Made by a program: the position numbers and the translations under genes
Notes under the pieces: generated by a model
Database searches by the model: none
Told to the model about the DNA's origin: nothing
Seen by the model: only the letters and a program-made list of their open reading frames with translations
Assembly: GCF_008014675.1 (NCBI RefSeq)
Contig: NZ_VOXD01000009.1
Coordinates: forward strand, 62,001-126,000
Source: Neolewinella aurantiaca
Lineage (GTDB): Bacteria; Bacteroidota; Bacteroidia; Chitinophagales; Saprospiraceae
Direction of reading: 5' to 3'
DNA length: 64,000 nucleotides
Shown here: one piece after another, positions 297 through 61,167 of the stretch
How positions within the stretch are numbered: the stretch's first letter is position 1
Layout of the letters: the number at the start of each line of letters is the position of its first letter

Positions 297-2333
297 TCAG
301 GCCCGCCAGAAGCGAAGCAAAAGAACCTCCACGAGGAAGAAAGCCAGTGCGCCCCAGATGAAGTACCGCCAAAGCGGGGTTCCTTCGTTTCGTTCCCGGA
401 TGTCGCCGATCAGACTGGCTTGGTTGTCGGCATCGAGAAGCGCAACGTTGGGGATGCTGGCCAGTTCGGCCAGTTCATTCGCATCGAGGTAAGAAAGATC
501 GGATTCTTTGCGGTCATAGTTGAAAGCAAAAGCATCCACTATTTCATCGCCCAGAACGAGGTCGTAAGTGCCCGCTTCGGGCACCTGGTTGTTGAGGCTA
601 AGCAGTACCCGGTTATCCACCACTCTTTGCTCGGGGATGAACTCTCCGTTCTTACCGCGCAATTTGAAAACGATGTCTGCACCTGCGCCCCGCCTGCTGG
701 TTTGGATTACCTCGTCCTGCCCGATGGTGTAAGCGGCCTGACGTCTGCGTCCGCTGCTGATGCCCATTTTGTAGAGCATGGGAATGAAGATTTCGGCGTT
801 GAGGGCGAGGTTGTTGATCTCGTTATCGAGCGGAGCACTGGAAAGGTAAACGTTTCCTTCGCCGAGCGTATACTTGGCCAGTGCCGTAGAGCCGTCGCGG
901 TAGGTCAGTAATGATTCCTGCTGACGGCTTCCTACGCGCCCGATGGGGAAATTGCCCGTCGTTGCGGGCAACCGCAGTGCACTTGAGCGGTTGCGGAACA
1001 CGTCACGGAAAATGAATTCCCGGCGGTTCAGTCCGCTCACTTCGCGGTTCTGCTCCACGAATGCATCCAGCCGGTCGGAGCCAACGCGGGTCAGGAAAGT
1101 ATTGTAACTGTTCACATCAGCGTTTGCGGGCGGGAAGATGAGGATGTTACCACCGTTTTCCACGTAGAGCCTCAGTTGCTCGGCCAGGCCGGAGCCGACC
1201 GAAACCTGATCGGTCAGTACAATCAGGTCGTTTTCTGCCAGCGATCCGTAATCGATGTTACGGCTACCGACGTAGTTGGCCGCGAAGACGGAGAGCCCGC
1301 CCAGCGCTGCGCGCAGGTTGCGCTGCGGTTGCCCGTCGTCGTCGATATTGAGCACTTTCACCTTGTCGGCGGTACGAAAAGTGAGGTGGTAGACGTCGTC
1401 GAACTGAACGGGGAAGTCGGTGATCCGAAGTTCTGCGCGTCCGATGCCAGGCTCGGAGATATTGAGGTAAACCGAATCGGTGACGTAGCTGCGGGCGGGG
1501 ATGCTCAGTGTTCCTTCCGGTTTGCTTTGCCCCAGGTAGTTCTGGCTGAGGCGCACATTGTCGAGGTCTTCGTTTCCGTAGTTACGGATGCGGACCAGCA
1601 GCAGGTTGTTTTGGTTCAGCTGCGGCACCGGAGCCTCGAACCATACCGAATCGATCCCGACGTTGCGTTCCCGGACGCTGGTGAGCGGCACAAGGTTTAC
1701 CTGCACGGAAGTCTCCAGTTTTTCTGCGGAGAGGTCCACCACATTACGCTGAAAATCGGAGACCAGGTAAGTGATTTTATTCTCAATGTTTTCGGTGCGA
1801 AGCGCCGAACGCTGGCGGCCGTTCACCACCGAAAGACGGCGACTGGCGGGGGCCACTTTTATGTCTTCGATGAGTTCCAGCGCTTCTTCCTGACCAACCA
1901 GGCGCTGGTTCCGGCCTCTGAAATCGTTATCGACCACCTGGAAGCGGTCTTCAACTCCGTAGGCATTCACGATATCCCGGGCACGATCCTTGGCAATCTG
2001 CAGCAGTGGAGCGCTGTCGGACTCGGCCCCCATGCTAAAGCTGTTATCTACGTAAAGGCTGACGGCCTTGCGGCCGGTAAGCACCTCGCGCGCGGAAGGG
2101 ATGAACGGCTGAGCGAAAGCAAACACCAGCGCGGCCAGCGCCAAACAGCGGGCGGCCAGCACGAGCAGGTTGCGCAGGCGACTGCGCATGCTTGTTTCTT
2201 CTTTCACTTCCTTCAGGAACTTTACGTTCGAAAAAGCCACTTTCTTAAAGCGGCGGAAGTAAAAGAGGTGAATGATGATCGGGATGGCAAGTGCGGCCAG
2301 GGCCCAGAGGAAAGAAGGATATAAAAATTGCAT
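297..2333 (-). CDS. BatA-type membrane protein with N-terminal aerotolerance-regulator domain
   Basis: This is a 678-residue protein. The start is the ATG at 2333, because the sequence from there (MQFLYPSFLWALAALAIPII) matches the first membrane helix and FRRFKKV loop of the BatA N-terminal family; the open frame upstream has no such character. A second helix lies near residues 58-76. A von Willebrand-like domain follows with a DNSFSMG motif (DxSxS, metal-site type) near residue 92. A long extracytoplasmic middle part has beta-rich, CARDB-like stretches. A last helix, near residues 655-673, ends in FWRA. Family members sit in the inner membrane and probably act as scaffolds; their biochemical role is poorly known. 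The region at 678-686 carries a copy of the GCAGGTGCA motif, coding for GAGAD. Confidence 0.85.
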   Translation of the reverse strand: MQFLYPSFLWALAALAIPIIIHLFYFRRFKKVAFSNVKFLKEVKEETSMRSRLRNLLVLAARCLALAALVFAFAQPFIPSAREVLTGRKAVSLYVDNSFSMGAESDSAPLLQIAKDRARDIVNAYGVEDRFQVVDNDFRGRNQRLVGQEEALELIEDIKVAPASRRLSVVNGRQRSALRTENIENKITYLVSDFQRNVVDLSAEKLETSVQVNLVPLTSVRERNVGIDSVWFEAPVPQLNQNNLLLVRIRNYGNEDLDNVRLSQNYLGQSKPEGTLSIPARSYVTDSVYLNISEPGIGRAELRITDFPVQFDDVYHLTFRTADKVKVLNIDDDGQPQRNLRAALGGLSVFAANYVGSRNIDYGSLAENDLIVLTDQVSVGSGLAEQLRLYVENGGNILIFPPANADVNSYNTFLTRVGSDRLDAFVEQNREVSGLNRREFIFRDVFRNRSSALRLPATTGNFPIGRVGSRQQESLLTYRDGSTALAKYTLGEGNVYLSSAPLDNEINNLALNAEIFIPMLYKMGISSGRRRQAAYTIGQDEVIQTSRRGAGADIVFKLRGKNGEFIPEQRVVDNRVLLSLNNQVPEAGTYDLVLGDEIVDAFAFNYDRKESDLSYLDANELAELASIPNVALLDADNQASLIGDIRERNEGTPLWRYFIWGALAFFLVEVLLLRFWRA

Positions 2334-2506
2334 AGTCAGGGAAGAAGACGAACTTGGGCGGGGGAATGTTTTACGGGGGGCAAGGTAAAGGTACTTTGGT
2401 ATGTTGGTTCGTTGGTCGTTTGAGCGTACCCCTATTGTAAAGAAGCAGCTAACAAGCGGGTTCAGGGAAGATTCTTCGGGTGTTTTTGGGTATGAAGGCT
2501 CCAGAG

Positions 2507-2527
2507 GGCGCGGACGCAGGTGCAAAG
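2507..2527 (+). repeat. Copy of dispersed GCAGGTGCA motif (intergenic)
   Basis: GGCGCGGACGCAGGTGCA followed by AAG. The flank GGAGGTTTTC is shared with the copy at 61147, so the similarity extends beyond the core. It lies in the 227-bp gap between two minus-strand genes. Confidence 0.8.
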
Positions 2528-2560
2528 GAGGTTTTCCCGAAGCAGGTCGAAGCCCGGGCA

Positions 2561-3807: not shown

Positions 3808-3828
3808 CTCTGCACCTGCTGCCGAGCC
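3808..3828 (-). repeat. Copy of dispersed GCAGGTGCA motif upstream of the subtilase
   Basis: CTCTGCACCTGCTGCCGAGCC on the plus strand, 36 bp before the subtilase start. The upstream flank TCAACTTTCT is shared with the copy at 57558, which shows a longer common ancestor than the 9-bp core. Confidence 0.75.
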
Positions 3829-3863
3829 CATAACCGTTTCTGATTTTTTAACCACACACTATT

Positions 3864-5384: not shown

Positions 5385-5424
5385 TCCGTTGACCAGTTGA
5401 ATCGTTGGTAATTTGATTCGTTAT

Positions 5425-6787: not shown

Positions 6788-6809
6788 AGGCGGGAACGCG
6801 GGTGCAGGG
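6788..6809 (+). repeat. Degenerate copy of dispersed GCAGGTGCA motif
   Basis: AGGCGGGAACGCGGGTGCAG: one mismatch in the 9-bp core and good agreement in the left context. It lies 10 bp after the acyltransferase stop. Confidence 0.5.
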
Positions 6810-8441: not shown

Positions 8442-9635
8442 ATGACCACAACCAAGCCCCACCGCCTCAGCCAGCAGCGTAGCTCAAACGTAACCGAAAT
8501 CCTAACCCAACTCGTTGCCTTCCCGGTTCTCGGCGGAGAAGGGAACCACGCCATCGCCAACTGGATCAAGGCCTATCTGGACGAATACGGCGTTGCCTAC
8601 CAAACCGTACCCGACGAAACCGGGACGAAGGAAGCTATCCACTGCCGCATCGGCCCTGCCGTTGACGGTGGAATCATTTTGAGCGGGCATATGGATGTGG
8701 TACCGGTGGTTGGTCAGCCGTGGGATACTGATCCGTTTGAGCTTACGTTGAAGGGAGATAAGCTCTATGGCCGTGGGAGCTGCGACATGAAAGGTTTCCT
8801 TGCTTGTTGCCTGGCAAGCGTTCCACTGCTCCTGCGTTCGCGCCTGAAAAAGCCCGTTTACTTTGCCTTCAGCTTCGATGAGGAAATCGGTTGCATGGCC
8901 GGTGACCTGACCGCGGAAGCCATCCGCGATTTCTACGACGAAAAGCCCGGAGGTGCCATCATCGGTGAGCCCACGATGCTGCAGCCGATGGTGGGCCAGA
9001 AAGGCATCATGGTGTACACCACCACCGTGCACGGTAGCCAGGGGCACAGCAGCCGGGTAAAGCAGGAAGTCGATGCGATCCACGAAGCTGCCCGCCTCAT
9101 CGTTTGGCTCGAAGACAAGATGGACGCCCTCATCGCCGCCGGACGGACGGACGACCGCTTCCACCCCAACCATACAAGCATCCACGTAGGCACGATCAAA
9201 GGCGGCTCCGCCTTCAACATCATCGCCAACGAATGCAGTTTCGACTGGGACTTCCGCAACATCCCCATGGACGATGCCCAGGCCATCATCGACGATTTCC
9301 AGGCTTATTGTGCCGAACGAATCGAGCTGCGCCGCAAAACCTTCCCCGGCTTCAACATCACCCACTCCGCGATGCACCCGCCCGTTCCGCCGCTCGACAC
9401 GGCGGAGGACGAGCCGATCGTAGACCTGATCAAGAAGATCTCCGGCCGGACAGATGTATCCACCGTCGCTTACGCCGCCGAGGCGGGGCAGTTCTCTAAC
9501 GCCGGCTTTCCGGCCGTCATCTGCGGCCCCGGCGACATCGCGCAGGCGCACCGGGCTAATGAATTTTGCGCGGTAGAGCAACTGGAAGGGTGCATGGAAA
9601 TGATTGAGCGACTGGCCACGTTCAGCAGCCTTTAA
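8442..9635 (+). CDS. argE: Acetylornithine deacetylase (M20/ArgE family)
   Basis: This is a 397-residue cytosolic di-zinc hydrolase. The start at 8442 is preferred over 8391 because the extra residues lie in an inverted repeat and the promoter ends just before 8442. M20 motifs are present: SGHMDVVPV (His83, Asp85), GRGSCDMKG (Asp115), FDEEIG (Glu147/148, general base and ligand), an IGEP segment, and a late AQAHRANE with the last metal His. The order and length (about 390) fit ArgE, which makes ornithine from N-acetylornithine in arginine synthesis. Other M20 amidases (for example N-acetylcitrulline or succinyl-amino acid deacylases) cannot be excluded; an acetylcitrulline variant of the pathway is known in some Bacteroidota. 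The stop codon lies inside a 25-bp palindrome. Confidence 0.8.
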   Translation: MTTTKPHRLSQQRSSNVTEILTQLVAFPVLGGEGNHAIANWIKAYLDEYGVAYQTVPDETGTKEAIHCRIGPAVDGGIILSGHMDVVPVVGQPWDTDPFELTLKGDKLYGRGSCDMKGFLACCLASVPLLLRSRLKKPVYFAFSFDEEIGCMAGDLTAEAIRDFYDEKPGGAIIGEPTMLQPMVGQKGIMVYTTTVHGSQGHSSRVKQEVDAIHEAARLIVWLEDKMDALIAAGRTDDRFHPNHTSIHVGTIKGGSAFNIIANECSFDWDFRNIPMDDAQAIIDDFQAYCAERIELRRKTFPGFNITHSAMHPPVPPLDTAEDEPIVDLIKKISGRTDVSTVAYAAEAGQFSNAGFPAVICGPGDIAQAHRANEFCAVEQLEGCMEMIERLATFSSL

Positions 9636-11652: not shown

Positions 11653-14600
11653 ATGAAACCAATCGCTATTTTAAGCCTCGCACTACTGCTATTCCAGTGT
11701 GCTGCGCCTCTCCCCGACCCCGTACTTACCTTAGAAAACAACGACCACATCGTCCTCGTTGGAGGAAACCTGTGCTCAAGAATGATGGACTACAACCATT
11801 TAGAGACAGAGGTACAACTAAGGTTCCCTGAGCACCAGCTCTTCATCCGCAATATGTGCGACGGCGGCAACACGCCGGGCTTTCAGCCCCATTCCGCGCG
11901 CACCGATCCCTGGGCTTTTCCGGGCGCGGAGAAATTCCATCAGCACGATGGCCTTGCACGTGATTCCCGCTCTGAAGGCTTCTTCCCGACACCCGACGAG
12001 TGGCTCACCACCCTGGAGGCCGATATCATCATCGGCTTTTTCGGATACAGCGAGTCCTTCAGCGGCCCCGCGGGCGTTGACAACTTCAAGGCAGAGCTAA
12101 AAATGTGGTTAGACTATACTTCGCTATCCGATTACAACGGCAACGATTCTCCTCAGATCGCACTGGTGTCGCCCGCCGCTTTTCAGGACCGGTCTGCGGT
12201 GATGGACCTCCCCGATGGCAGCCTCGAAAACGAAAACCTGCGGCTCTACGCCGAGGCCATACGCGAGGTCGCCACCGAAGCGGGCGTCCCCTTCATTGAC
12301 CTCTTTGCGCCCACCGAAGCCTGGTTTGCCGGCAATACCGACATGACCACCGACGGCGCACAACTCTCCGAAAAAGCTTACAAGAAACTGGCGCCCTGGC
12401 TGGCAGACCGCCTCTTTGGGGGCGAGGCTGCAGAAGAGGCGCGAACGCAGGTGCATAAACTGGTTGAAGACAAGAACTGGCTTTGGCACAACGATTTCAA
12501 AATCCCCAACGGCGTACACGTCTACGGCCGCCGACACAACCCGTTCGGGCCCGACAATTACCCGATGGAAATCAAAAAGATCAGAGAGATGACCATGATT
12601 CGGGACACCGCAATCTGGTCCGCCCTTCGTGGCCAGGAATATGACATCGCCGCTGCCGACGCTAAAACCTTTACCCTCCCTCCCGTCGAGTCCAATTACT
12701 CCCTGGTCAAGGAAGACGGAACCGTAGACTACCTCTACGGCGAAGACCTGATGTCTACCTTCACCTTAGCCGACGGCTTCAAACTCGAGCTCTTCGCCTC
12801 CGAGGAAGAGTTCCCCGACCTCGCCAACCCCTGCCAGATGAGTTTCGACAATAAGGGACGGCTGTGGGTTGCCGTGATGCCAACCTACCCCCACTACAAA
12901 CCGGGCGACTCACGCCCCAACGATAAACTCCTCATTCTGGAGGATACCGATAACGACGGCAAAGCCGACAAATCAACCGTCTTCGCAGATGGCCTCCACG
13001 TCCCCGTTGGCTTCGAATTGGCTCCCGAAGGCGTTTACGTTTCTCAGGGCACCAACCTCGTCTTGCTGAAAGACACCGACGGAGACGACCACTACGACGA
13101 AAAAGAGATCATCTTGTCGGGTTTCGATGACCACGACACCCACCACACCATCAGCGCTTTCACTTCCGATCCTTCCGGAGCGATCATTATGGGCGAAGGC
13201 CTTTTCCTCCACTCTAACGTGGAGACCGCCTACGGTACCGTCCGGGCCGCCAATGGCGGCTTCTACCGGTTCAGTCCGCAACGCCGTCACCTGGAGCGCA
13301 CCGCCCAAATCCCGATCCCCAACCCGTGGGGCATCGCCCACGACGACTTCGGCCAGCCTTTCTTTGCTCAGACCTCAGGCCCCGCCGTGCACTGGATGCT
13401 GCCCAGCACCGTCAAAAACCAGTATGGTACCCAGGCTCCGCTTGCTTCACAACTGATCGAAGAAGACCATAAAGTGCGGCCGACTTCCGGCCTCGAATTT
13501 GTTTCCAGTCGTCATTTCCCCGAAGAAATGCAGGGAGATATGCTCATAAACAATACCATCGGCTTTCTGGGGATGAAGCAGCACGAGATGATCGACAACG
13601 AAAGCGGGAACTTCAGCACGAGATGGCGGCAAGACCTGATCAGCGGAACCGACACCAACTTCCGGCCCGTGGATATGGAGTTTGCTCCGGACGGGAGCCT
13701 TTACTTCATCGACTGGCACAACGTTCTGGTTGGCCACATGCAGCATAATGCCCGTGATCCCCTGCGCGACCACGTCCACGGTAAGGTTTACCGCATCACC
13801 TACCTCGAGCGCCCGCTCGTGGAGCCCGCCGAGATCGACGGAGCTTCCATCTCAACCCTGCTCAGTAACCTCGAACTACCCGAATACCGGTCCCGCTACC
13901 GGACACACCGTGAACTCCGGGGCCGACCTTCCGACGAAGTAATCCCCGCTGTAAAAAGCTGGATTGCCGACCAGGAAAAAAGCGCGCCCAACTACGAGAA
14001 GCTCCTGATGGAAGCCCTCTGGGTTACCTGGGGCCAAAACGAAGTCGACCAGGATTTACTCGAAACCGCACTGCAGGCCAAAGACTACCGCGTGCGTGCG
14101 GCTGCGGTTCAGGTACTGCGTTACAGCAGGCACCAGGTGAGCAACCATACCGGCCTGCTGAACACCGCCGCCGGCGATGAGCACCCGCGTGTGCGGATCA
14201 TGGCCCAAACCGCCGCCACCTGGCTACCCGAAGATGCCGGCCGGATGATTCTCGCTACTGCAGCCCAACACCCGGAGGAAGACTGGATGAAAAAATTCAA
14301 CGAAGCAGCCCCCAAATTCCTGACCGGCGAAGGACTCGACCGCCCCAAAGACGCAGCAATAGTTGCGAAGCACCTCAAAGGGGCTGACCTGAAGCAGTTC
14401 TCGGCGGGCGGAGAGATTTACCACAAAGACGGATCATGTGTCACCTGCCACCAGGAAACCGGAAAAGGCCTTACCGCCTCCGGCTTCCCTCCGCTGAAGG
14501 GTTCCGAATGGGTAAAGGGCGATCCGGAAGTGCTCGCTAAAATACTGCTCAAAGGCCTCATCGGTCCGATCACCGTAAAGGGTAAAGACTACCCCGGCCA

Positions 14601-15426: not shown

Positions 15427-16383
15427 ATGAAATTTCTCCTTTCGCTAATCCCAACGCTTTTCTTACTCTGCTCCTGTAACCCATCCGCGGCACCTGCGGC
15501 CGCGCCCGAAGAAGAAGATAAGCCGTACATCGTATTCGTAACCGGAGACGACGAATACCGTTCTGAGGAATCCATGCCGATGCTCGCCCGGCTGGTGGAA
15601 CGAGAACTGGGGGCACGAACGAAAGTGCTTTACGCCCTCGACTCGGCCGGCTACATCAACCCCAACATAACCGACAATATTCCCGGCCTCGAAGCACTGG
15701 ACTCGGCCGACATGATGGTCTGTTTCCTGCGCTGGCGCAACCTGCCCGACGACCAGGCGAAGCACATTCTGGACTTTGCCGAAAGCGGCAAACCAATGGC
15801 CGGGTTCCGCACCAGTACCCATTCGTTTATGTACAAAAAAGACACGCTGCGCCAGCACCTCAACAACGAATGGCCCGCCGCCGTCTTTGGCCAGCAGTGG
15901 ATCACACATCACGGTCACTTCGCCGATGGCCACGATCCAATGACCGAAGTTGAGGTATTCCCGGAGGCAGAAAGCCCGATCCTCAACGGCGTCAACGGCT
16001 TCCCGGCCTACTCGTGGCTGTACCACGTCGACGGCGGTAAATGGACAATCAACCCCAACGCAAGCCCCTTACTGAAAGGCACTTCTCTGCGTAGCAAACA
16101 CCAGGAAGCAGGTCGCCTGGACCAGTTCCCCCTTTCCAACCCCGTTGCGTGGACCAATGACTACAAAGGTGCACCCGTTTTCTTCACCACGCTCGGCCAC
16201 CCCTACGACTGGAAGAACCCCAACATGAGAAAACTTGCGCTCAATGGCATCGCCTGGGCGCTGGGCAAAGCAGATAAAATCCCGGCTTCAGGTCTGAATC
16301 CGGAAATCAACGGCGTTTACCAACCAAATAATTCCGGTTTTGGGGAAAAATTCAAAACAGGACGAAAGCCGGAGGCGTTCTAA
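15427..16383 (+). CDS. ThuA-domain lipoprotein
   Basis: This is a 318-residue protein with lipobox LCSC (Cys17) and an Ala/Pro-rich linker (SAAPAAAPEEED). A GCACCTGCGGCCGCGCC variant of the dispersed motif encodes this linker. The body is a ThuA domain (class I glutamine-amidotransferase-like fold): IVFVTGDDEYRSEESMPML, a SADMMVCFLRWR strand, GKPMAGFRTSTHSF, then the GHPYDWKNPNMRKLALNGIAWAL ending that is typical of ThuA proteins in Bacteroidota and Planctomycetes. Such proteins commonly accompany PVC-type haem lipoproteins, as here (gene at 11653-14799), and are thought to act in oxidation of sugars such as trehalose derivatives; the reaction is not established. Confidence 0.88.
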   Translation: MKFLLSLIPTLFLLCSCNPSAAPAAAPEEEDKPYIVFVTGDDEYRSEESMPMLARLVERELGARTKVLYALDSAGYINPNITDNIPGLEALDSADMMVCFLRWRNLPDDQAKHILDFAESGKPMAGFRTSTHSFMYKKDTLRQHLNNEWPAAVFGQQWITHHGHFADGHDPMTEVEVFPEAESPILNGVNGFPAYSWLYHVDGGKWTINPNASPLLKGTSLRSKHQEAGRLDQFPLSNPVAWTNDYKGAPVFFTTLGHPYDWKNPNMRKLALNGIAWALGKADKIPASGLNPEINGVYQPNNSGFGEKFKTGRKPEAF

Positions 16384-27154: not shown

Positions 27155-29278
<2,124 letters not shown>

Positions 29279-29678: not shown

Positions 29679-29699
29679 CCTTGCACCTGCGGCCGCGCC
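29679..29699 (-). repeat. Copy of dispersed GCAGGTGCA motif (intergenic)
   Basis: CCTTGCACCTGCGGCCGCGCC on the plus strand, 28 bp beyond the stop of the tryptophan dioxygenase gene. The core (29682-29690) is exact. Confidence 0.8.
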
Positions 29700-34076: not shown

Positions 34077-34097
34077 CATTGCACCTGCGTCAGCGCC
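34077..34097 (-). repeat. Copy of dispersed GCAGGTGCA motif (intergenic)
   Basis: CATTGCACCTGCGTCAGCGCC on the plus strand with an exact core (34080-34088). Confidence 0.75.
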
Positions 34098-34122: not shown

Positions 34123-34143
34123 GGCGCGGACGCGGGTACGGGG
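34123..34143 (+). repeat. Degenerate copy of the dispersed motif, inverted to its neighbour
   Basis: GGCGCGGACGCGGGTACGGG keeps the left context but has changes in the core, followed by GAAGGTTTT as in the copies at 2507 and 61147. It forms an inverted pair with the copy 25 bp to the left. Confidence 0.6.
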
Positions 34144-43200: not shown

Positions 43201-46200
43201 TCGTTGTACAATTATCCGACTTCACCGCCTGGGGGCGGTAGTCCGGTAGGGTTACCTCGCAGTTTCCATCGGTCAGCAGCACTTCGTTCGCCGGGCAGGT
43301 GAGCATCGGGCTGATGGTATCCTGCAGGGTGACCATCACGCTACAATCGCTGGTGTTGCCGTTACCATCGTCGGCGGTTAGCGTAACCGTTATCTGCGTA
43401 TCGTCGCTGCTGTATACGGTAGTAGCCAGCGGAGCCTGGGTTATCGTGATTCTGCTTCCTCCGTTCACGTCGGCACAGTTGTCGGTCGCCGTGGTTACGG
43501 CAACGAGATCCGGTAAGGAGGCTTCACAGTTTGCATCTACATAAATGGTCGAGTCGGCCGGGCAGGTGATGACCGGTGGGATTACGTCGTCGAGTAGAAC
43601 GACAAAGTCACAGCTTGTGGTGTTTCCGTTGCCATCGTCGGCCGTCAGGGTTACCGTGAAGCTACCACCTTCGTTCTGTGCGGCAAAGACGGTTCCGGCT
43701 ACGGGGTCCTGGGTTACTGTAATGGCCGCCGGATCGGTACAATTGTCGTCGGTAACGGCCTCAGGGGTGTAGTCGGGCACGGTAAATTCACAATCGGCGG
43801 TCAGATTTTCCACCTTATCGGCCGGACAAACGATGCTCGGCGAAATCGTGTCTTGCAGCGTAAGGTTAAATATGCAGGTGGTTGTGTTGCCACTCAGGTC
43901 TTCCACCGTCAGGGTGATATCCTGGCTGAAAGCCTGGCCGCTGATCACGGTTCCCGCGGGCGGAGACTGCGTCACCTCCAGGTCTGCCGGATCGGTGCAG
44001 TTATCAGCGATAATTGCACGGCTGGTGTAATCTTCGAGGGCGAAGTCACAGCCGGCATCCGGGTTAGCTACTGTGTCAGCCGGGCAGGTAATCGTCGGGC
44101 TGATGGTATCGGTCAGCGTCAGCTCAAAGTCGCAGCTTACGGTGTTGCCGTTGCCGTCGTCGGCTGTCAGCGTGATGGTGAGCCCCCCGCCCCCCAGAGG
44201 GGGAGTAAGAACGGAGCCGGGCGGTGGCGTTTGGGTATACACGATCTGATTTCCTGTTGCCGACGTTGAGGTCGTTCCGGTGGGACGGCAATTATCCTGC
44301 GCGGTCGCAGGTCCAATGTCCCAGTAATCGGGCACGGTATAATCACAAGCTGCGGTAAGTACGCCGAGGGTATCGTTCTGGCAAACCGGAATGGTTGGTG
44401 GCGTGCGGTCAAAGAGGGTTACTTCAAAGGAACAGGACACCGAATTTCCGCTACCGTCGGTAGCGGTCAGGGTAATGGTTTCGGTGGCGAGGTGTCCGCT
44501 GATGGTGGTTCCCGGCAGCGGCATTTGGGTTATCGTGATGTTGCTTTGCTCACAAGCGCTACTCGCGGTCGCCTCTCCGGTATAATCAGGTATGCTTTGC
44601 TGGCAGTTACCGTCGGCGGTCAGTTCCTGATCGGCCGGGCAGGTGATCATCGGGTCGGTGCTGTCTTCCAGCGTAACCATCATTGTGCAACTGTCCTGAT
44701 TGCCGGATTCATCGGTAGCGATGAGCGTGACTTCCAGGGTCAGCCCATCCCCGCTGAGCGGGGTTCCGGCAAGGGGCCGCTGGGTCATAACGACGATATC
44801 TCCGGGTTCCGAGCAATTATCTGCCAGACCTGCATTGGGGCGGTAATCGGGTAGTAATATCTGGCAGTTGCCGTCTACGCTGATTACGTCATCAGCCGGA
44901 CAGGTAATCATCGGCGGGATGGTATCGATCAGCTGAACGTCGAAGTCACAGTTGGCAGCATTGCCGCTGGCGTCGGTTGCAGTGAGGGTGATGGTAATCA
45001 GGCTTGCCTCATCGCTCACCATCGTTCCGGGAGCCGGGCTTTGGGTCACAGTTACGGCCCCGGAGCCTTCGCAGTTATCGGCTACTTCCGGTAAGGAGGT
45101 GTAGTCCGGGATAAGGGCGGCGCAGGCAGCATCGACCACCAATGTTGTATCAGCAGGGCATGCAATTGTTGGCGCCGTAACGTCCTCCAGTTCAACGGTA
45201 ATCATGCACTGGGTCGAGTTTCCGGAAGGGTCCGTGGCGATGATGGTGACGACCTGTTCTGCGCCAAGACCGGAGATCGTTGCTCCCGGAACCGGGCTTT
45301 GCACCAGCGTCAGCGCCCCTGCCTGAACGCTCAGCGGACCACAGTTATCAGTCACGGTAATACTATCGCGGTAATCGGCAATAGTGACCATACAGGCCGG
45401 GTCGGCGGCGATCACACTTAACGGCGGACAAGTCAACGCCGGCGGCGTATTGTCGCTCACGGTAACCATAAACGTACAGTCAGTGGTGTTGCCGTTTCCG
45501 TCGTCGGCCGTCAGAGTGACGGTTTCGGTGCTCAGTCCGTTTAGGGGACTGCCTGGCGCATTACTTTGCGAGAGCGCAGGTGCAGGGGAACAGTTATCGG
45601 CAGTGGACGCAAGCCCCGTGTAATCCGGGAGGGTGGTTGTACAGTTCCCGTCTACAAATATTTCCTGTGCCGGGGGACAGGTGATCGTGGGCGCGGTATT
45701 GTCCTGCAGCACGAGTAAGAACGAGCAGTCGGTCGTATTCCCGTTTCCGTCATCAGCCGTCAGGGTGATCGTCGTGGAAGTATTGTCTCCACTTAAGGTT
45801 GTTCCCGCAGCAAGAACCTGAGTAACCACAATAGCTTCCGGCACAGTACAGTTGTCGCTTACCGTTGCCGAACGGTAATCCGGCACCATTGCATTACAGG
45901 CATCATCAACAAATATTTCCTGGTTTGCCGGGCAGGTAATGGTCGGGGCTGTGTTGTCCTCCAGTATGATCGTTGTCAGGCACTGAGCGGTATTCCCGTT
46001 GCGGTCATCAGCCGTCAGGGTAACGACGATCTCCGTCCCGTCGCCGGTGAAGGTTTGTCCTATCCCGATGTTCTGGGTCACGATAATCATGTCGGTAGTA
46101 GTGCAATTGTCAGCGACCGCGGCCTGCGCTGCCAGGTCCTCTAAGTCGTAGCTACAGTCTGCGTCCAGGTCGATGGTTTTATCGGCGGGGCAACTGATCG

Positions 46201-49200: not shown

Positions 49201-52200
49201 GCGTCACCGCAATGGCTGCCCCCATGCTACAATTGTCCGTTTGGGTAGACAGCGAACTGAAATCCTCGAGGCCGTAAGAGCAGGATGCGTTCAGGTCGCG
49301 TGCCTGATCTGCCGGGCAGGTAATTACGGGATCGGTATCGTCCTCCAGCGTCAGGGTAAAATCGCAACTGGCGCTGTTGCCCGCAGCATCCGTGGCAGAA
49401 ATTGTAATGGTGGTAACCGTTCCGTCTCCCGTCACTACGGTTCCGGCGGCGGGGCTTTGCGTTACGGTAAGATTAGGCGCGGGCGCAGGTGCAAGGGAAG
49501 AACAGTTGTCTTCGATGACCGCCATGCCTGTGTAATCTGGAATTGTAAAGCTACAAGCTCCGTCTACTGCTTCGGTCTGGTCAGCAGGGCAGGTCAGGGT
49601 TGGTGGCGTTACGTCCTCGGTTTGGTAATCGAACATACAGCTGATCGAATTGCCATTCACATCCGAGGCTGTGATGGTAATCTGAATCACCTGTTCTCCG
49701 CTCACTACAGTATTGGGAGCCGGGCTCTGTACCAGCGTAAAGCCATCCATTGTGCAGGTAGAGCTCACCATCGTTGCCCCCCGGAAATCAGGAATCAGAG
49801 CCTGGCAATTAGCGTCTAACTGATCCAGTTGCGGGCTCACCGGACAGGTAATCATCGGCGGCTGGTTATCCATCAGTTCTACCTGAAACGAACAGTTGGC
49901 CGTGTTTCCCGAAGCGTCGGTGGCCGTAAGCGTTACCGTTACGGGGCTATCGTTGATGTCGTACATCGTGCCCGCGGCGGGGGATTGAACAACAGCAACC
50001 GGCCCCTTGCGGGGGTCACAATTGTCGGATACACTAGCCTGACTTGCGTAGTCAGGCAGCGGCACCTCACAGGTGCCGTCCACGGCGATGGTCTGAGGGG
50101 CGGGGCAGGATATGACGGGAGGGGTCTGATCCACGACGGTAACGTCAATGGTACAACTCGTCTGCAGTCCGGCATTATCCGTCGCCGTGATCGTTACCGT
50201 CAGGTCGTTGGAGATATTGGTTCCCGGCCCGGGCGTCTGGACGACGGAGACGCCGCCACAGGCGTCAGATGCCACCCCGTTCATATAATTAGGCAAGATG
50301 GCCAGGCAGTTGTTCGCGTCTACGACCAGAGTTTGGGGCCCGACGCAGTTGAGAACTGGTGGTGTTACGTCTTCTTTGATGAAGGTAACGCTACACTGAC
50401 TGCTGTTACCAGCTGCATCAGTAGCCGTTACGGTTACATTTTGGGTTGCTGCGGTAAAGGTCGTTCCGGCGGCGGGCGATTGCGTAATGGTGATGCCCGC
50501 AGCACCGCAGTTGTCCGTAGCGGAAGCGAGGCCCGTTACATCGGTGACCGTTCCTGCACAGCTGATGGCATCGGCATCTACCGTGATGGGAGCCGGACAG
50601 GTGATCATTGGCTGCGTCCGATCTACCGTTATCAGGTCGAAAGTACAATTACTGCTATTGCCGTCTTGGTCGGTAGCAGTCAGAGTAATTTGAGTTGTGG
50701 TGGCGGAGGTGATCATGCTGCCTGCGGCGGGGCTTTGCGTCACCGTAATCTGGTTGCCGGGGGAGCAGTTATCCTGCACACCGGCCTGGCCGGTAAAGTC
50801 AGGCACTACCACTGAGCAGTCGTTGGAAGATACATTGCGGGTCTGGGTACCGGGGCAATTGATGGTTGGTGGGGTTTCGTCGTCTAGCGTGAGGGTGTAG
50901 GTACAGTTGCTCACGTTACCGGCTTCGTCGGTAGCGGTGATGGTGACCAACACGTTCGTCCCGTCATTGCTTCTAACCTGACCCTGCACCGGCGTTTGCG
51001 CCAAAGTAATGCCCGCGCCCATCGAGCAATTATCCGTTACGGTAGCGTCTCCCGTCAGGTCCGGAATCTGGTACTGACAGTTTTGATCCACCGTTACATC
51101 GGTGTCTGCCGGGCAGGTAAGTGTTGGCGCAATACGATCTTCGCCCGTTACCGTAAACGTACAGCTGCTGGCGTTGCCGCTCTGGTCCGTAGCCGTAATA
51201 GTGACGGTGTTCGCGCCAATGTTGAGGGTACTTCCCGCCACCGGAGACTGGGTAATGACGATGTCGTTGGTCGCCGTACAGTTATCACTGCTCTGTGCAT
51301 TGGCAGTATAGTCTGCCAGGGTAATTTCACAGTCCGCATCAACGGCTACAACAGCATCTCCCGGGCACTGCACCGCTGGCGGCACATCATCCAGGGTAGT
51401 CACCATTACGTCGCCAACACAGATACCGTCATCGTAGCGGATCGTTTCCGTTACGGGAGCACCCGTAAAGTTATTTCCCAAAGTAACCACACCATTCTGA
51501 TCGACCGTAGTTCCGATGGCACTGCCACCAACAACGCTCCAAACGCCGTTGGGCACATCAGCCGTGATGGCCTGCAGTACGTCTCCCGGGCAGCCGGTGT
51601 CTTCAAACTGGGTCAGGTTCGGTTCATCAATGAAGCCGTCTCCGTCGTTGTCAATTCCATCGTTACAGATTTCGCCACAGCGGGCATTGCCCAGGAAGTT
51701 GACGTTGTTCGAGTAGTCACATTCCGGCGTTCCGGTCAGCGGGAAATCGCTGTCCTGAAAAGGGAGGTCAGCTGCAGCAAAGCCCGGGTCATTTACGCTC
51801 AGGTAAATGAAAGCACCCGCGGGAACCGCACTAATGGGAATAGTGACCTGTACCGTCGTCTGATCGCCTGCTTCTACCTGCACGGGCAGCGAGGTCGTCT
51901 GGATCAGGGTCGCCATTGTAACCCGTGGATCATCGATATAGTAAGAGATAGGCGTCGAAGCCGGCAATGGTGCCGAACCTGCGTTCTCAATCACAAGAGT
52001 CGCCAGAATTTCGTCGGGGCATCCGGAAAAGTCGATGACGGGTAAGCCGTCACCACCAATTTCCACCATGATGATGGCATCCGGTGCAGGGTATGTGATG
52101 ACCGCCTCGGGCCCTCCTCCCACAGAGGTTTGTACCAAAAAGTTATTGTATCGCTGCCCGAGCGCCGGGTTCAGGTTATTCTGCTGAAACTGAGGCACCG

Positions 52201-55058: not shown

Positions 55059-56024
55059 TTACTTCTTATTGAGCCGGAGCCAAAAATCTTCCGCCATCGC
55101 TTCCGGATCAATATCTTCGTACATCCATACGGATCGCGGGGTGTTTTCGGGTGGCGTGGGCACGCTGATTTCGGAAGCTTGCTCAGGCTTCAGGAAGGCT
55201 TGCAGCAGGGCTACGTCCCACATCGTCCATTTAGTGGCGTCAGGACCGGCGCTGGTTTCCCAGCGCTTGCGCAGGTAAGCGCCGATTTCACCTGCTTTGC
55301 CGAGTTGCCCGAAGGTTTCGTTTCTGTCCCAGGTGTACTCGATGGCCACCGAGATGGGCATTACGTGCAGCTCGAGCCCTTCGGCGTTGAGGAGGTAATT
55401 GGCAGCGTTGAGATCCCGGCGGATGTTGAACTCGTCTTTATTCCAGAACCCGCCGTCGAAGTCGTAGCGAAAGCCGAGGGTGTAGGCAACGATCCGGTCT
55501 TTGATCTCTGGTTGCAGAGCGATGGCGGAGGCCAGGTTGGTTGCCGCGCCGATACACATCACCACGAGTTTTTCGTCATCGTTCAGCGCCATGGTTTCAT
55601 CGATGATAAACTGGGCTGCGGGGCTGTCGCGCGGGTCATAATCGCCCCACGGTTTCCCCATGATGAGGTCGGCCCCGAGGGGATGGGGCAGATCGGAGCG
55701 CCCGGCGAGGTCGAGTAGTTCTTCGTTCAGTTGCTGGCTTTGGTAGACCGTACTGTCTCCGCTCCAGACGTGAAACCACTGAGCGGAACTGATGCCCAGT
55801 AGTTCAAAGCCGGGGTAATCCTCCGTTACCAGGTACGCGATGGCAAACAGGTCGTCGATTTCATTGGCAGTATCGGAATCGAGAATCATTTTTACGGGAG
55901 CCTCGCGTGGCCATTCGTGGCGCGGAGCTTCGGGGAGGTCTGCTTTTTCAGCGTCTGATGTTGCGGGCGACGGAGCGCAGGTGCAGAGAATGGTTAGGAG
56001 GAGCAGAAGGATGACGGTTCGCAT
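55059..56024 (-). CDS. Nucleoside hydrolase (IUNH family), lipoprotein
   Basis: This is a 321-residue protein; the start at 56024 gives a lipoprotein signal (LLLLLTILCTC). A copy of the dispersed motif (55977-55985) encodes the CTCAPS part. The Asp-rich calcium motif near the N-terminus of the mature protein is KMILDSDTANEIDDLFA (family: DxDxxxDDxxA, with two changes). IGAATNLASAIALQPEIKDRI and a NIRRDLNAANYLLN segment (family: EFN..xDPEAA) follow. It hydrolyses nucleosides to base and ribose, here outside the cytosol, as a scavenging enzyme; specificity is open. A TATATTTG box ends 4 nt before the ATG, suggesting leaderless transcription. Confidence 0.88.
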   Translation of the reverse strand: MRTVILLLLLTILCTCAPSPATSDAEKADLPEAPRHEWPREAPVKMILDSDTANEIDDLFAIAYLVTEDYPGFELLGISSAQWFHVWSGDSTVYQSQQLNEELLDLAGRSDLPHPLGADLIMGKPWGDYDPRDSPAAQFIIDETMALNDDEKLVVMCIGAATNLASAIALQPEIKDRIVAYTLGFRYDFDGGFWNKDEFNIRRDLNAANYLLNAEGLELHVMPISVAIEYTWDRNETFGQLGKAGEIGAYLRKRWETSAGPDATKWTMWDVALLQAFLKPEQASEISVPTPPENTPRSVWMYEDIDPEAMAEDFWLRLNKK

Positions 56025-56028
56025 TGGG

Positions 56029-56036
56029 CAAATATA
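56029..56036 (-). promoter_or_regulatory. -7 promoter box TATATTTG of the nucleoside hydrolase gene
   Basis: A perfect TAnnTTTG on the minus strand, 4 nt before the ATG at 56024. It lies in the 17-bp gap to the upstream CIA30 gene, so the hydrolase probably has its own promoter. Confidence 0.5.
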
Positions 56037-56041
56037 CCGGA

Positions 56042-56569
56042 TCATTCCAACCGAATCCAATCAAGCTCTAACCTAAAGTCTTCCTCTTGTTTATTGCCGA
56101 TCAGAATGGCGACTTCGGAGAGTACCTCCGCCGGATAATCCTCCCGGTCAAGACGGCGCCCCCGCCACTGGGGCTTCATTGCCCGAAGCTCTATTTCCAC
56201 TTCTTCCCATTCTCCGGAGGTTTGAAAGTTGTACACATAGCTGTGCCGGTGGTCTTCGTTCGTTTTTGTCCGGAACTGATATGCTCTGCCATCGCCCTTC
56301 AGGCGTATTACTGCTTTGGTAAAACCGTCAATCCGGGTACCCGGCATCCGGTAGCGCAGGGAACTAAAGCCTCCGTTATTGTCCAGAGAGACATGGCCGG
56401 TGTACAGTCCGTGACCATCTTCGCTGAGCCCGAAGCTTCCTTCCGAAACTCCTCCCATAACGGTATCATCTACAGTACGCCAATTTGTGAGATCAGCATC
56501 AGGAGTAAAATCGAAAATAATCATCGGTGGCAATTGAAAGAGTAAAAGTAGTGGCAAAAGGATGTACAT
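56042..56569 (-). CDS. CIA30-family protein
   Basis: This is a 175-residue protein. The segment DLTNWRTVDDTVMGGVSEGSF, then GHVSLDNNGGFSSLRYR, is the signature of the complex-I intermediate-associated protein 30 family (a galactose-binding-like beta sandwich), with the late LDWIRLE strand. The hydrophobic first 15 residues (MYILLPLLLLFQLPP) may be a short signal peptide or may be extra; a second start is the Met at position 15. In bacteria the family is widespread and its job is unknown; it is not linked to complex I here. Confidence 0.9.
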   Translation of the reverse strand: MYILLPLLLLFQLPPMIIFDFTPDADLTNWRTVDDTVMGGVSEGSFGLSEDGHGLYTGHVSLDNNGGFSSLRYRMPGTRIDGFTKAVIRLKGDGRAYQFRTKTNEDHRHSYVYNFQTSGEWEEVEIELRAMKPQWRGRRLDREDYPAEVLSEVAILIGNKQEEDFRLELDWIRLE

Positions 56570-57557: not shown

Positions 57558-57578
57558 CTTTGCACCTGCGGCCGCGCC
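57558..57578 (-). repeat. Copy of dispersed GCAGGTGCA motif (intergenic)
   Basis: CTTTGCACCTGCGGCCGCGCC on the plus strand with TCAACTTT upstream, shared with the copy at 3808. It sits in the 247-bp gap 57354-57600, which also has a TACCTTTG box (57525 area) with no gene after it. Confidence 0.8.
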
Positions 57579-57600
57579 TGAAAAAACGGAGATGGTAGAT

Positions 57601-60600
57601 CTAACCTTCCTCCCCCTTCAGACTCGTCAGGAACGCCACAAGGTTGCGAATTTCCCGACGGGAAATCTTCCCGTCCACAGAAGGCATGCTTGACGGCAGG
57701 GTTTCCTCTTCCGCAATATCAGCCCGGGGAATCTTCTTTGTCTCCGTCTTTCCTGTCTTCACCTCCAGGTATTCGGGAGTACGACTCACCACTATGCCCG
57801 AAAGCATTTCTTCGTTATTGAGGGTCACCAACACGGTCTCGTGGCCAGGCGCAAGTGCTTCGCTTGGGCGGATGATTGAGGTCAGCAGTTCCCGGGGTGA
57901 GAGGCGGTGCCCGACCCCGGCCAGGTTCGGCCCAACGTTGCCACCGTACTCAAAGATGGCGTGACAGCGGGTACACTGAGCGGTAGTATTCCGGTAGAAC
58001 ACCCGGTAACCAGCCCGCTTGTTTCCGCCAGCCAGTGCGGTGGCCATCAGCCCCAGATCATCTGTTTTCATGAGCTCTTCCTCGTAGGCAGACAGTTGTT
58101 TCTGGAGTTCTGTGTTGCCATCATGAGCTTCAACAGCCTCCACCAGGTCGAGGTGAATAACGGCCGGGAGTTTGCCCGCTGCCATCTGGCCGATCAACTC
58201 GCCAAGGAGCGCTTCCCCTTCGGCGCCCGGGAGTTTCGCCAATCCAGCAAGTGCTGACTGGGCCTCGCCAACGGTCCCTTCCACAATGATGTCGCGGTAA
58301 AGCTTAGTGGCAGAAGCAGGCTCGATAGTAGATGCAGGCAACAGTTCCAGCGCGCGTCGACGTACCTGATCGTTGCGATCATTGAGGGCCGTACGTAGTA
58401 ATTGCTCCAGGTTGGGCGCGTGAAGTTTGTCGAGTGCAACCAGAGACTCCGCCCGGATATCAGGATTGCCGTCCTGGGTCATCATGGTGGCAAGCTGGTC
58501 CGTAGTTCCTTTGAGCTCTAGCGAAGAAGACGCCCTGATCGCAGCTTTACGGACACCAGCCTCGCCTTTCGCGATCAGTTCAGGAATGATGCTTCCGAGC
58601 TTTTCCGTTACGTAAACAGCGCTCTTTTTCCGTACTCCCCGGTAGCGACCGTCTACGCGGTCAAATACCGACGGGTCGGCCCAAGTGCCGAGTGCAGCCA
58701 GGGCCTCGGCCCGCATTGGGGCCGGATTAGATGTGTTATCGACGTACTTCACCAACTCGTCAATTGCGCGATCATTACCGACGTTGACTGCGGCATTGAT
58801 GGCGCGCCGGATGAGTGGTTCGCTCGTCCACGCGCGGGCATTGAGTGTACTCGCCAGGGGCCACATTGCTCCGGGGATGGTGAAGTCATCGTTGATGGCA
58901 CGCGCGGCTTCAGCCACAACGTATTCGTCCTCATCCTGAAGGAAAGCTTTCACTTCCGGAGATTCCATACGGCGGAGTGCTACCACCGCCAGCAGGCGAA
59001 CGTTGCGGGAAGGATCGGCCGCCAGGTTGCGCATGGCAACGGCATCGCCGATGCGGCCGAGGGCAACCATGCCGCCGTGGCGAAGCCACGGGTCCTGGCC
59101 ATCGTCTTCGCGCAGCATAGCTACAATTGGCTCTACCGCAGCAGTCTCTTCGGTTCGGCCAAGGGCCTCCATGGCGAAGAAGCGAACGCGCGCAGAAGGA
59201 TGACCAAGCAGGCCGATGAGCGCTTCTGCATGGCCACTCTGTTTGAGGTCTCCGATCATTTTAGCGGCCTGGGCGATGATTTCCGCGTCGGCATCGAGAA
59301 GGAGTTCAGCGAAAGCGCCCTCTCCTTCTTCGTAGCCCCGGCGATTCATCATGCTCATGCCCCAAATGGCGTGGATGCGGGCTAGCTGCTCTTTTGATCC
59401 GGCAGAAACTTCGCGGAAGGCCTCAAATCCGTTTTCGGCTCGTTTTGCCAGTTCGAACTGAGCTTTGAAACGGATACGTTGGTCTTGATGGCCGAGGAGT
59501 TCGGCGAGAGATGGTTCGTCATTCCGTGAGAAATCGCTTGTCAGCAGTTCGCCGACTTCTTTTCTCAACTCCGTTTCTGCACCTGCGTCCGCGCCTACAT
59601 CCAATTTCCAGATGCGGCCCTCGTTTTTCGTCCCCCAGCCGTTGATCCAGTCGCCGAAATAGAGGGAGCCTTCGGGACCAAAGTCGAGACCGGTTGGTAA
59701 CAGGCCTTTCACGATCGTGTCGTGATCAGCAAGGGCAAAGCCCGCGCCGTCGGGCTTCATGCTGAAGGAATGGATGGGTGAATTATTCGGTGAACCCCGG
59801 AATTCGGCGACGAAGAAGCGGTCGTAGTAGTCAGGAGACAAGGCGGTTCCCGGGTTGTACACCAGCCCGGTGGGGCCGTTTACGAAATTCTGGATAGCGG
59901 GCAAGAAGTAGGCGGCTTGTTCGTCGTTGCGGGCCAGGCTCATCTTTTCGTCCATCCATACTTTGTAGTCATTGTTTTTGTCGTCGGTGTACTTGCCGAA
60001 CTGCCAGTTTATCCGCCAGCCGGTATCTGAACCATCGATGAGGTAAACCAGGCGTTCACGCTCTCCGGCGTGGTCGCCATCATTGTCGACAGTAATGAGG
60101 TTACCGAACTGATCGAAAGCAAATTCATGGGTATTGCGCACGCCGTGCGCAAATACTTCGTAATTGGAACCATCGGGGTCACACCGGACAACAACGCCCC
60201 GGTTGGGGTACTTCCAGTTCTTGCCGTCTTTATCGGTTACGTTGGAGCCGATGTCTCCGATTCCCCACCAAATGCGGCCCTGGGGCCCTACCGTAACGCC
60301 ACTCATACCGTGGCCGCTAAAGCCAATATGGACTGCAAAGCCATGCGCAAGAGCTTCCGTACCATCGGCGATGCCATCGTTGTTTTCGTCGGATGCTTTC
60401 CACAGATCAGGGCCTACGGCTACATAAACATTGCCGTCGTGGTACTCGATACCGTTGGCCACATCAGTAATCTCTTCACCGAAGTCTTCCAGATAGCGCT
60501 GTGTGTAGTCGGCCACGCCGTCCCCGGTTTTGTCCGTTACGTACCATACGTTTTCCTTTTCGACCGTGAGGTCCCGCCAGTCGCGAACGCCATCGTTGTT

Positions 60601-61026
60601 CAGGTCTTTCAGGTGAGCCATTGACTGATCGTTGTCGGCCTCAAAGGTTTTGCGGAGAAATTCCCGCCGGTCTTCTACTGTCTCGAACGACATGGAAGCC
60701 ACCGTCCAGTCCATGTGGCCCCTGATGTCGAACTCGGAACTCGTTTGGCGGGAAGCACGGGTGTAGAAAATCCTTCCGTCCGGAGCTACACTGATGGCGA
60801 TCGGATCCTGTACGATAGAATCGGCCGCCCAGAGATCAAGCTTCAGATCGTCCAGAATTTCAACGTTCATCTCCTTGCGGATTTTAGCGGCTTCGCTTGC
60901 CGCCGTTTCCGGGTCTAGTGAGATGGACTTCGCTTCGTATTTATTATTGACCTCCGGAGCACAGGCATAAACGATTCCGGCAATAGCCAGAAGGGCAAGA
61001 AGAATTCTTACTGGGAACTTTCGCAT
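57601..61026 (-). CDS. PVC-type haem-binding lipoprotein (propeller, HEAT repeats, cytochrome c)
   Basis: This is an 1141-residue protein. Lipobox VYAC (Cys22). Residues 50-480 form a beta-propeller of glucose/sorbosone-dehydrogenase type with calcium-like DxNxD loops (LNNDGVRDWRDL, DKTGDGVADYTQ, DENNDGIADGTE) and GPEGSLYFGDWINGWG near the end. Residues 500-960 are HEAT-type helical repeats (IRFKAQFELAKRA, ARVRFFAMEALGR, VRLLAVVALRRM). A c-type cytochrome domain carries CTRCH near 1016 and GPNLAGVG plus SIIRPSEALAPGHE, the TIGR02603-like signature. It is likely an exported electron-transfer or sugar-oxidising protein of unknown substrate. A full GGCGCGGACGCAGGTGCA copy (core 59578) encodes GADAGA in the linker between propeller and HEAT part. 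Confidence 0.92.
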   Translation of the reverse strand: MRKFPVRILLALLAIAGIVYACAPEVNNKYEAKSISLDPETAASEAAKIRKEMNVEILDDLKLDLWAADSIVQDPIAISVAPDGRIFYTRASRQTSSEFDIRGHMDWTVASMSFETVEDRREFLRKTFEADNDQSMAHLKDLNNDGVRDWRDLTVEKENVWYVTDKTGDGVADYTQRYLEDFGEEITDVANGIEYHDGNVYVAVGPDLWKASDENNDGIADGTEALAHGFAVHIGFSGHGMSGVTVGPQGRIWWGIGDIGSNVTDKDGKNWKYPNRGVVVRCDPDGSNYEVFAHGVRNTHEFAFDQFGNLITVDNDGDHAGERERLVYLIDGSDTGWRINWQFGKYTDDKNNDYKVWMDEKMSLARNDEQAAYFLPAIQNFVNGPTGLVYNPGTALSPDYYDRFFVAEFRGSPNNSPIHSFSMKPDGAGFALADHDTIVKGLLPTGLDFGPEGSLYFGDWINGWGTKNEGRIWKLDVGADAGAETELRKEVGELLTSDFSRNDEPSLAELLGHQDQRIRFKAQFELAKRAENGFEAFREVSAGSKEQLARIHAIWGMSMMNRRGYEEGEGAFAELLLDADAEIIAQAAKMIGDLKQSGHAEALIGLLGHPSARVRFFAMEALGRTEETAAVEPIVAMLREDDGQDPWLRHGGMVALGRIGDAVAMRNLAADPSRNVRLLAVVALRRMESPEVKAFLQDEDEYVVAEAARAINDDFTIPGAMWPLASTLNARAWTSEPLIRRAINAAVNVGNDRAIDELVKYVDNTSNPAPMRAEALAALGTWADPSVFDRVDGRYRGVRKKSAVYVTEKLGSIIPELIAKGEAGVRKAAIRASSSLELKGTTDQLATMMTQDGNPDIRAESLVALDKLHAPNLEQLLRTALNDRNDQVRRRALELLPASTIEPASATKLYRDIIVEGTVGEAQSALAGLAKLPGAEGEALLGELIGQMAAGKLPAVIHLDLVEAVEAHDGNTELQKQLSAYEEELMKTDDLGLMATALAGGNKRAGYRVFYRNTTAQCTRCHAIFEYGGNVGPNLAGVGHRLSPRELLTSIIRPSEALAPGHETVLVTLNNEEMLSGIVVSRTPEYLEVKTGKTETKKIPRADIAEEETLPSSMPSVDGKISRREIRNLVAFLTSLKGEEG

Positions 61027-61146
61027 TATAATTTCGACTTTATTTGAGTTGGCGAAAGATACTGTTCACCTACCTAAAAATCTCCCTTGAATATCGGACA
61101 ATTACGATCCGACACCAGAAATGGATTCAGGCTTACAGGTTCTGAG

Positions 61147-61167
61147 GGCGCACACGCAGGTGCAGAG
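61147..61167 (+). repeat. Copy of dispersed GCAGGTGCA motif (intergenic)
   Basis: GGCGCACACGCAGGTGCAGA with TTCTGAG before and GAAGGTTTTC after, a longer match to the copy at 2507. It lies in the gap between two minus-strand genes. Confidence 0.8.

Follow-up and report, generated by a model that had tools for sequence, protein, structure and literature searches.

The window analyzed here is a stretch of 64,000 nucleotides from the genome of Neolewinella aurantiaca (contig NZ_VOXD01000009.1, positions 62,001 to 126,000 of the forward strand), across whose genes and gaps the 9-mer GCAGGTGCA is scattered as the core of a longer motif, a putative DNA uptake sequence. The window holds 18 exact copies, all at the positions that an earlier note on this DNA had listed, against a mean of 0.39 and a maximum of 2 in 100 shuffles; among its 9-mers the word ranks second, behind its own one-base shift CGCAGGTGC. 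Genes were called from open reading frames (ORFs) and codon usage by ourselves, which places 13 of the 18 copies inside genes and 5 in gaps. G-numbers denote the genomes compared, G000 being the one that holds the window. The exact copies are as follows.

678..686, minus strand: sense, frame 0, in gene 297-2561(-)
2516..2524, plus strand: antisense, near the 5' end of ORF 297-2561(-); intergenic if the true start lies downstream
3811..3819, minus strand: intergenic
12447..12455, plus strand: in gene 11653-14799(+), reads ARTQVH
17125..17133, plus strand: N-terminal signal-like stretch of gene 17080-18336(+); retained in G005
19956..19964, plus strand: antisense in repeat gene 18356-23935(-), 162-bp repeat unit
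20118..20126, plus strand: antisense, 162-bp repeat unit of gene 18356-23935(-)
20280..20288, plus strand: antisense, 162-bp repeat unit of gene 18356-23935(-)
27206..27214, minus strand: antisense, N-terminal signal-like stretch (LFCTCGPAQ) of gene 27155-29278(+)
29084..29092, plus strand: sense, gene 27155-29278(+)
29682..29690, minus strand: intergenic
34080..34088, minus strand: intergenic; the weak copy at 34131 is its inverted partner
45576..45584, plus strand: antisense, giant gene 40295-53764(-)
49485..49493, plus strand: antisense, giant gene 40295-53764(-)
55977..55985, plus strand: antisense, N-terminus of gene 55059-56060(-)
57561..57569, minus strand: intergenic
59578..59586, minus strand: sense, gene 57601-61026(-)
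61156..61164, plus strand: intergenic

A weight matrix trained on 107 sites, 17 of them from the window itself, finds 27 sites scoring above 12 in the window and none in the reversed window. The scan yields these variant copies.

6797..6806, plus strand: 1 mismatch (CGCGGGTGCA)
8827..8836, minus strand: 1 mismatch
15489..15498, minus strand: 1 mismatch (CGCAGGTGCC)
21296..21305, minus strand: 1 mismatch
34131..34140, plus strand: 3 mismatches, flanks well matched
41583..41592, minus strand: 2 mismatches
44306..44315, plus strand: 1 mismatch
45300..45309, minus strand: 1 mismatch
50985..50994, minus strand: 1 mismatch

The near copies that the earlier note had picked out at 6798, 15488, 21298 and 34131 prove to be variants with 1, 1, 1 and 3 mismatches to the 10-mer CGCAGGTGCA. 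Its statement that several reading frames are used also holds, the number in the window being five and not four, and copies do occur in unrelated genes and in gaps, which speaks against the single protein family that it had named as a possible refutation. Protein repeats were considered as the source of the motif and rejected, accounting for 3 of the 18 window copies; those at 19956, 20118 and 20280 are not independent because all three are carried by one 162-bp protein repeat, and such repeat-encoded copies are kept in all counts. The gene concerned, 18356-23935(-), encodes a 1,859-aa protein of 162-bp repeat units, three with the motif, and the corresponding repeat in G005 is also motif-bearing.

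The excess extends to the whole genome (5,995,659 bases), where GCAGGTGCA occurs 1,232 times, 629 on the forward and 603 on the reverse strand, against 25 (15 + 10) for the reversed word, a difference of ~50-fold; the genome-wide frequency that the earlier note had proposed to check is not near expectation. Four versions of the motif are distinguished below, A (GCAGGTGCA), B (CGCGGGTGCC), C (CGGAGCGCAGG) and D (CAAAGTAGCA). Copy numbers in the hundreds to thousands, far above expectation, are a mark of uptake sequences, and they are found for A as well as for D (1,344 copies versus 16). Alignment of 120 copies from 464 kb gives the extended consensus ~GGCGCGgmCGCAGGTGCAraG..a.GkTT, in which information exceeds background between positions of about -9 and +19 relative to the 9-mer, in agreement with the 20-30 bp of similarity first noticed. 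Weaker flank positions are A/T-rich at -13 on the 5' side and purine-rich at +21 to +26 on the 3' side. The extended motif thus measured is ~28 bp long, with a strongly conserved 10-bp core. In the 464-kb sample the core 10-mer CGCAGGTGCA has 107 copies against 1.8 expected from a Markov model built on 5-mers, and its 30 one-off variants together have 91 against 43.7 expected, fewer than the perfect form. Perfect and one-off counts of the A 10-mer are 107 versus 91 in G000, 23 versus 22 in G002, 25 versus 27 in G005 and 15 versus 24 in G012; for the D word in G011 they are 25 versus 13. Once expectation is subtracted, perfect copies exceed one-off copies in every sample except G013.

Copies are over-represented between genes (46 of 120, where 13.9% of the sequence is intergenic), and many also lie inside genes, the distribution looked for in an uptake sequence. 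The in-gene copies are 34 sense and 40 antisense and use five of the six frames (AGA, PQVQ/TQVQ, LHLR, CTC and APA); 21 of the 74 lie in the opening 10% of their gene, and some of these in stretches that look signal-like by eye. The earlier observation of copies on both strands, in genes and in gaps, therefore applies well beyond the window. Orientations are balanced and interleaved, with 40 '+' and 37 '-' copies along 300 kb and, for the B-dialect sites listed over 1.27 Mb of G019, 44/56 in the first 100, as judged on contigs; such absence of bias is likewise typical of uptake sequences. Neighboring orientations alternate slightly above chance, in 49 runs versus 39.4 expected (standard deviation [sd] 4.4), and spacing is more even than chance (coefficient of variation 0.75 versus a simulated 0.98, sd 0.085), only 5 of 5,000 simulations being equally even. 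By contig, runs number 49 versus 39.4, 14 versus 9.9 and 59 versus 50.3 on G000:C1, G000:C2 and G019:C1, and 14 versus 13.3, no excess, on G000:C94.

These data bear directly on a recombination hotspot of the Chi type, an option the earlier note had raised, or on a replication-oriented polar sequence such as the FtsK-orienting polar sequence (KOPS). Either would be short, over-represented and present in genes and gaps. The lack of orientation bias along 300 kb, or along 1.27 Mb for the B dialect, leaves the Chi-like option unsupported, and with the alternation of neighbors and a logo extending over 28 bp it makes an origin of this kind highly improbable. Among 45 gap copies with both neighboring genes called, 25 lie between tandem, 15 between divergent and 5 between convergent genes; since convergent gaps make up 17% of gap bases, nothing points to a terminator device.

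Orthologous loci were compared in alignments of <90% identity, after labels belonging to one genome had been combined and the motif-rich set reduced; the sets are of our choosing, and labels of metagenome-assembled genomes (MAGs; R3, L2, Co246 and others) may duplicate G003, G008, G010 or G018. At site 12447, the exact 10-mer stands at the same codons in G002, G003, G005, G006, G010 and G018, and G008 has one mismatch, while the motif is absent in G014, G015 and the other aligned relatives; a motif-less ortholog of this site lacks a fitting gap. In this comparison, which the earlier note had called for, the 10-mer core is identical in 63 of 94 pairs between motif-rich genomes at a mean flank identity of 73%, versus 326 of 4,720 control positions (6.9%). 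The 94 pairs are not independent, as they derive from 38 query sites and 57 of them come from the gene at 12447; without that gene, 37 pairs from 30 query sites remain, of which 21 are identical and 3 gapped, and 17 of these sites have an identical partner. In the full set, 5 of the 94 pairs have a gapped core versus 230 of the 4,720 control positions. High core identity without an excess of gaps indicates that, among motif-rich species, copies are retained well above the background level and were not recently inserted.

An uptake sequence should arise by substitution, and on this point the core gaps seen among motif-rich genomes differ from those seen with partners of other dialects, where 16 of 53 pairs have a gapped core versus 292 of 4,410 controls (67% flank identity). 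Either motif sites therefore occupy stretches prone to indels, or some of them originated with indels. Within a broader 34-nt window, gaps are present in 144 of 398 pairs versus 908 of 6,988 controls. Both excesses would suit a tiny mobile or copied repeat inserted throughout the genome, akin to repetitive extragenic palindromes (REP), miniature inverted-repeat transposable elements (MITE) or Rickettsia palindromic elements (RPE), as would the strong consensus and the size of ~28-40 bp. Such a repeat should, however, have left a gap excess among motif-rich pairs and fitting gaps in motif-less orthologs such as that of 12447. Of six wide alignments inspected, none shows an exact empty site accompanied by a duplication; one locus, represented twice among them (L181 and L201), is ambiguous. 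Different dialect versions at the same orthologous place, described below, are also not expected of insertions. We accordingly regard the micro-mobile repeat of the earlier note as very unlikely; it finds no support among motif-rich species, although the gaps facing other dialects leave insertion, or indel-prone placement, some weight there.

The motif exists in clade-specific dialects, a further feature sought in an uptake sequence. Dialect D has 1,344 copies in G011 and at most 12 in each of the other 20 genus genomes. Dialect B has 514 copies in G016 (N. marina), 406 in G019 (N. antarctica) and 404 in G013 (N. litorea), the next-highest counts being 177 in G014 and 154 in G020, and dialect C has 510 in G001 and 210 in G007, with 120 as the next highest. 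Their logos share an architecture of a T-rich stretch, a G/C block and the core, to which A, B and D add a G near +12. For C and B the logos are built on 10-12 sites in each of G001, G007 and G016 and on 42 in G014. In a ComEC tree, G001 and G007, G013 and G016, and G014 and G019 are sister pairs (support 100/99 or better), and sister species have the same type for C and B. The eight genomes with the highest A-word counts form one group (92/98, below the 95/80 mark), the B type falls in two separate clades, and the position of G011 is unsure because of its long branch. A few orthologous sites bear facing A, B or C versions, with flank identities of 0.54-0.80.

L067:3849: differing dialects at an orthologous site, versus G013 and G016
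L149:4541: differing dialects at an orthologous site, versus G013 and G016
G001 L082:12664: differing dialects at an orthologous site, with A-type cores in G009, G012, G013 and G016

Two further genomes stand beside these dialects. G017 has ComEC, DprA and helix-hairpin-helix (HHH) proteins and no clear motif in a sampled 100 kb, and its genome-wide count of the A 10-mer is 213 versus 9 for the control; G004, considered below, has the same proteins. Both have possibly lost specificity or carry an undetected dialect. In G002 (N. agarilytica), a second abundant word, AACCTGCAAC, occurs 24 times in 140 kb (L059-L065) versus 0.5 expected; it is probably a local repeat, because a count in separate 1-kb bins no longer ranks it among the most frequent words.

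Over-represented words are also known from other settings. HIP1 of cyanobacteria is a palindromic octamer without extended flanks, and like the Neolewinella word it has numerous dispersed copies in genes and gaps. A protected or methylated restriction-modification site, or a highly iterated word of the HIP1 kind, could on that precedent be proposed here, but the motif is non-palindromic with a graded ~28-bp logo, and core and flank change together between dialects, so that we give this proposal very little credence.

A stronger competitor is a genome-wide site, maintained by selection, of an internal DNA-binding protein acting in nucleoid structure, segregation, repair or recombination, with the dialects reflecting drift of its specificity. 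Even spacing, positional conservation and the intergenic excess would equally suit a chromosome-organizing site. Regulator sites, however, usually have a relaxed consensus according to PMC1626085, whereas here perfect 10-mers outnumber one-off forms. The sites also lack the strand polarity of KOPS or Chi, and more than 1,000 of them, many in genes and in several frames, would presumably be costly without a copying bias. A drive linked to a receptor would be the simpler account of dialect turnover. We therefore consider an internal-protein site unlikely.

Enrichment on this scale is confined to one genus (Neolewinella/Lewinella) among the genomes tested. A search for the extended consensus (23 fixed bases) across 84,980 species gives 81 matching stretches, although the search may omit records near the window's genome. 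All 81 belong to Neolewinella, Lewinella or unnamed Saprospiraceae/Bacteroidia MAG records. Across 199 genomes of the family, the 10-mer has 213-1,193 copies in four genus members and at most 51 in each of the 195 others; 9-mer counts in the 21 genus genomes span 31 to 1,281. A low-level excess is seen in some genomes outside the genus, for example G038 (9-mer 145 versus 9 for the reversed control) and G088 (10-mer 43 versus 0), and 100-kb samples of four genomes outside it, three of the family and one of the order, show no dispersed word above z 6.7.

Proteins of the ComEC, DprA and ComEA types, looked for in an uptake system, are present in the genus. ComEC is present in 21 of 21 genus genomes (in G000 at C2:32572-33399), and DprA and HHH_3 proteins are each present in 20 of 21, the exception in both cases being G010, which is 55% complete. 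The HHH protein that was examined, 379 aa long and from G017, contains three HHH_3 repeats and passes the cut-off of the ComEA model TIGR00426. Pilus components gave a different picture. The secretin family PF00263 is found in 0 of 21 genus genomes, with 6 of 14 controls positive, and matches to the pilus ATPase family PF00437, over the cut-off in 11 of 21 (best 25.5 bits), are short and weak and were rejected, these 11 and one more being ClpB. A type IV pilus ATPase and secretin were thus not found in the 21 genomes, sub-cut-off PF00437 matches being unexamined and pilins not searched. Judged by eye and with no family search, the ORFs ~6-7 kb on each side of ComEC in G000 (L025) suggest no com gene cluster. 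As neither a pilus ATPase nor a secretin was found, the type IV pilus in its standard form probably does not include the receptor.

Uptake sequences are best established in the Pasteurellaceae and Neisseriaceae, both proteobacterial and both pilus-based. The uptake signal sequences (USS) of Pasteurellaceae, of the Hin and Apl types (AAGTGCGGT and ACAAGCGGT), consist of a 9-bp core with flanking modules (PMC1626085), and the Neolewinella motif resembles them in its core and flanks, absence of orientation bias, strong consensus, many genic copies and subclade types. It differs in its unrelated sequence, its phylum, its ~5-fold sparser occurrence and the absence of a detected type IV pilus ATPase or secretin; USS arose by substitution (PMC1626085), whereas the gap test in Neolewinella is less clean against motif-less relatives. 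An excess of perfect over one-off copies is stated for USS, and one-off counts are higher in Neisseriaceae according to PMC3630211. The DNA uptake sequences (DUS) of Neisseriaceae comprise eight dialects that follow phylogeny (PMC3630211), and Neolewinella likewise has several dialects per clade that track phylogeny with a partly shared core. DUS are compact (~10-13 bases), bound by the pilin ComP and often paired as terminators (PMC3630211, PMC12616744), unlike the longer Neolewinella motif with no convergent-gap excess and no pilus ATPase or secretin found. Within Bacteroidota, transformation of Riemerella requires ComEC, DprA, ComF, RecA, an HHH protein and surface proteins that, in the view of its authors, do not resemble uptake machinery known elsewhere (PMC8459023). 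Neolewinella shares ComEC, DprA and a three-HHH protein with it (PMC8459023, PMC7965970). R. columbina favors its own DNA; its top k-mers are A-rich words, and no uptake motif is established in the available part of PMC7965970, in contrast to the defined dispersed motif of Neolewinella.

Several observations weigh against an uptake sequence. G004 has ComEC, DprA and HHH proteins, yet its A-word count equals that of the control (102 versus 102) and 100 kb of it shows no clear word. Density is ~0.2/kb, about one fifth of the 1/kb given for H. influenzae and Neisseria (PMC1626085). For the bare 9-mer, one-off copies (168, with 149 expected) outnumber the 120 perfect ones, and the same holds in the B- and C-dialect 100-kb samples (perfect versus one-off 12/19, 8/30 and 9/18). 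One gene, that at 12447, contributes most of the ortholog pairs, the core is gapped against other dialects more frequently than in the controls, and convergent gaps are not enriched, unlike those of DUS terminators. Phage contigs bear the motif too, so the word is not restricted to chromosomes. The open-licence literature searched yielded no data on Neolewinella uptake or transformation. Among the matches listed there, judged by title, no Bacteroidota uptake sequence turned up and no paper related to GCAGGTGCA.

Taken together, the genomic patterns make it likely that the motif serves Neolewinella as a DNA uptake sequence. Among the options of the earlier note, an uptake-sequence-like element appears to fit best; we class the motif as such, probably an uptake sequence proper and probably not a member of the pilus-receptor families. 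On balance we also favor, with more reserve, the view that sequence-specific DNA uptake evolved independently a third time, in Bacteroidota, where one genus would hold at least four dialects and use a receptor that is not part of a type IV pilus. A possible form of that receptor is an outer-membrane system of the kind suggested for Riemerella (PMC8459023). We infer competence, receptor binding, preferential uptake and drive as follows. A surface receptor of the competence machinery would bind fragments bearing the ~28-bp motif, which would be taken up preferentially; a ComEA-like HHH protein would hand the DNA to ComEC, and recombination would proceed via DprA and RecA. Incoming alleles with a better motif would be over-represented among recombinants, so that the motif would spread and be maintained, mainly by substitution, accumulating genome-wide at permissive places such as gaps between genes, N-termini and linkers. 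Where receptor specificity drifted in a lineage, sites across the genome would follow, giving rise to dialects.

If this is true, uptake-sequence drive would follow from competence in general and would not be peculiar to machines built on a pilus. The presence of most of the genomic hallmarks in so remote a phylum, where the customary pilus parts were not found, would make the idea of drive from receptor bias testable. It would also offer a route to a Bacteroidota DNA receptor, through proteins whose variation follows the dialects, and would give Neolewinella a practical transformation method.

Some minor observations remain. The 18-base consensus matches 31 viral stretches, which were picked for having the motif, so that their density is uninformative. 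In each of the phage contigs L288, L290 and L291 (IMG/VR), two copies of the extended motif stand 3,586 bp from each other. ORFs were read in L291 alone, where a 997-aa gene of tape-measure-like appearance, as judged by eye, lies between the copies. Within the window, self-matches reveal a tandem repeat with a period of ~94 bp at 10518-11459. Genes 11653-14799 and 57601-61026 encode two large DUF7133/HEAT/cytochrome c proteins, and a ThuA-domain gene (15427-16383) lies near the first of them.

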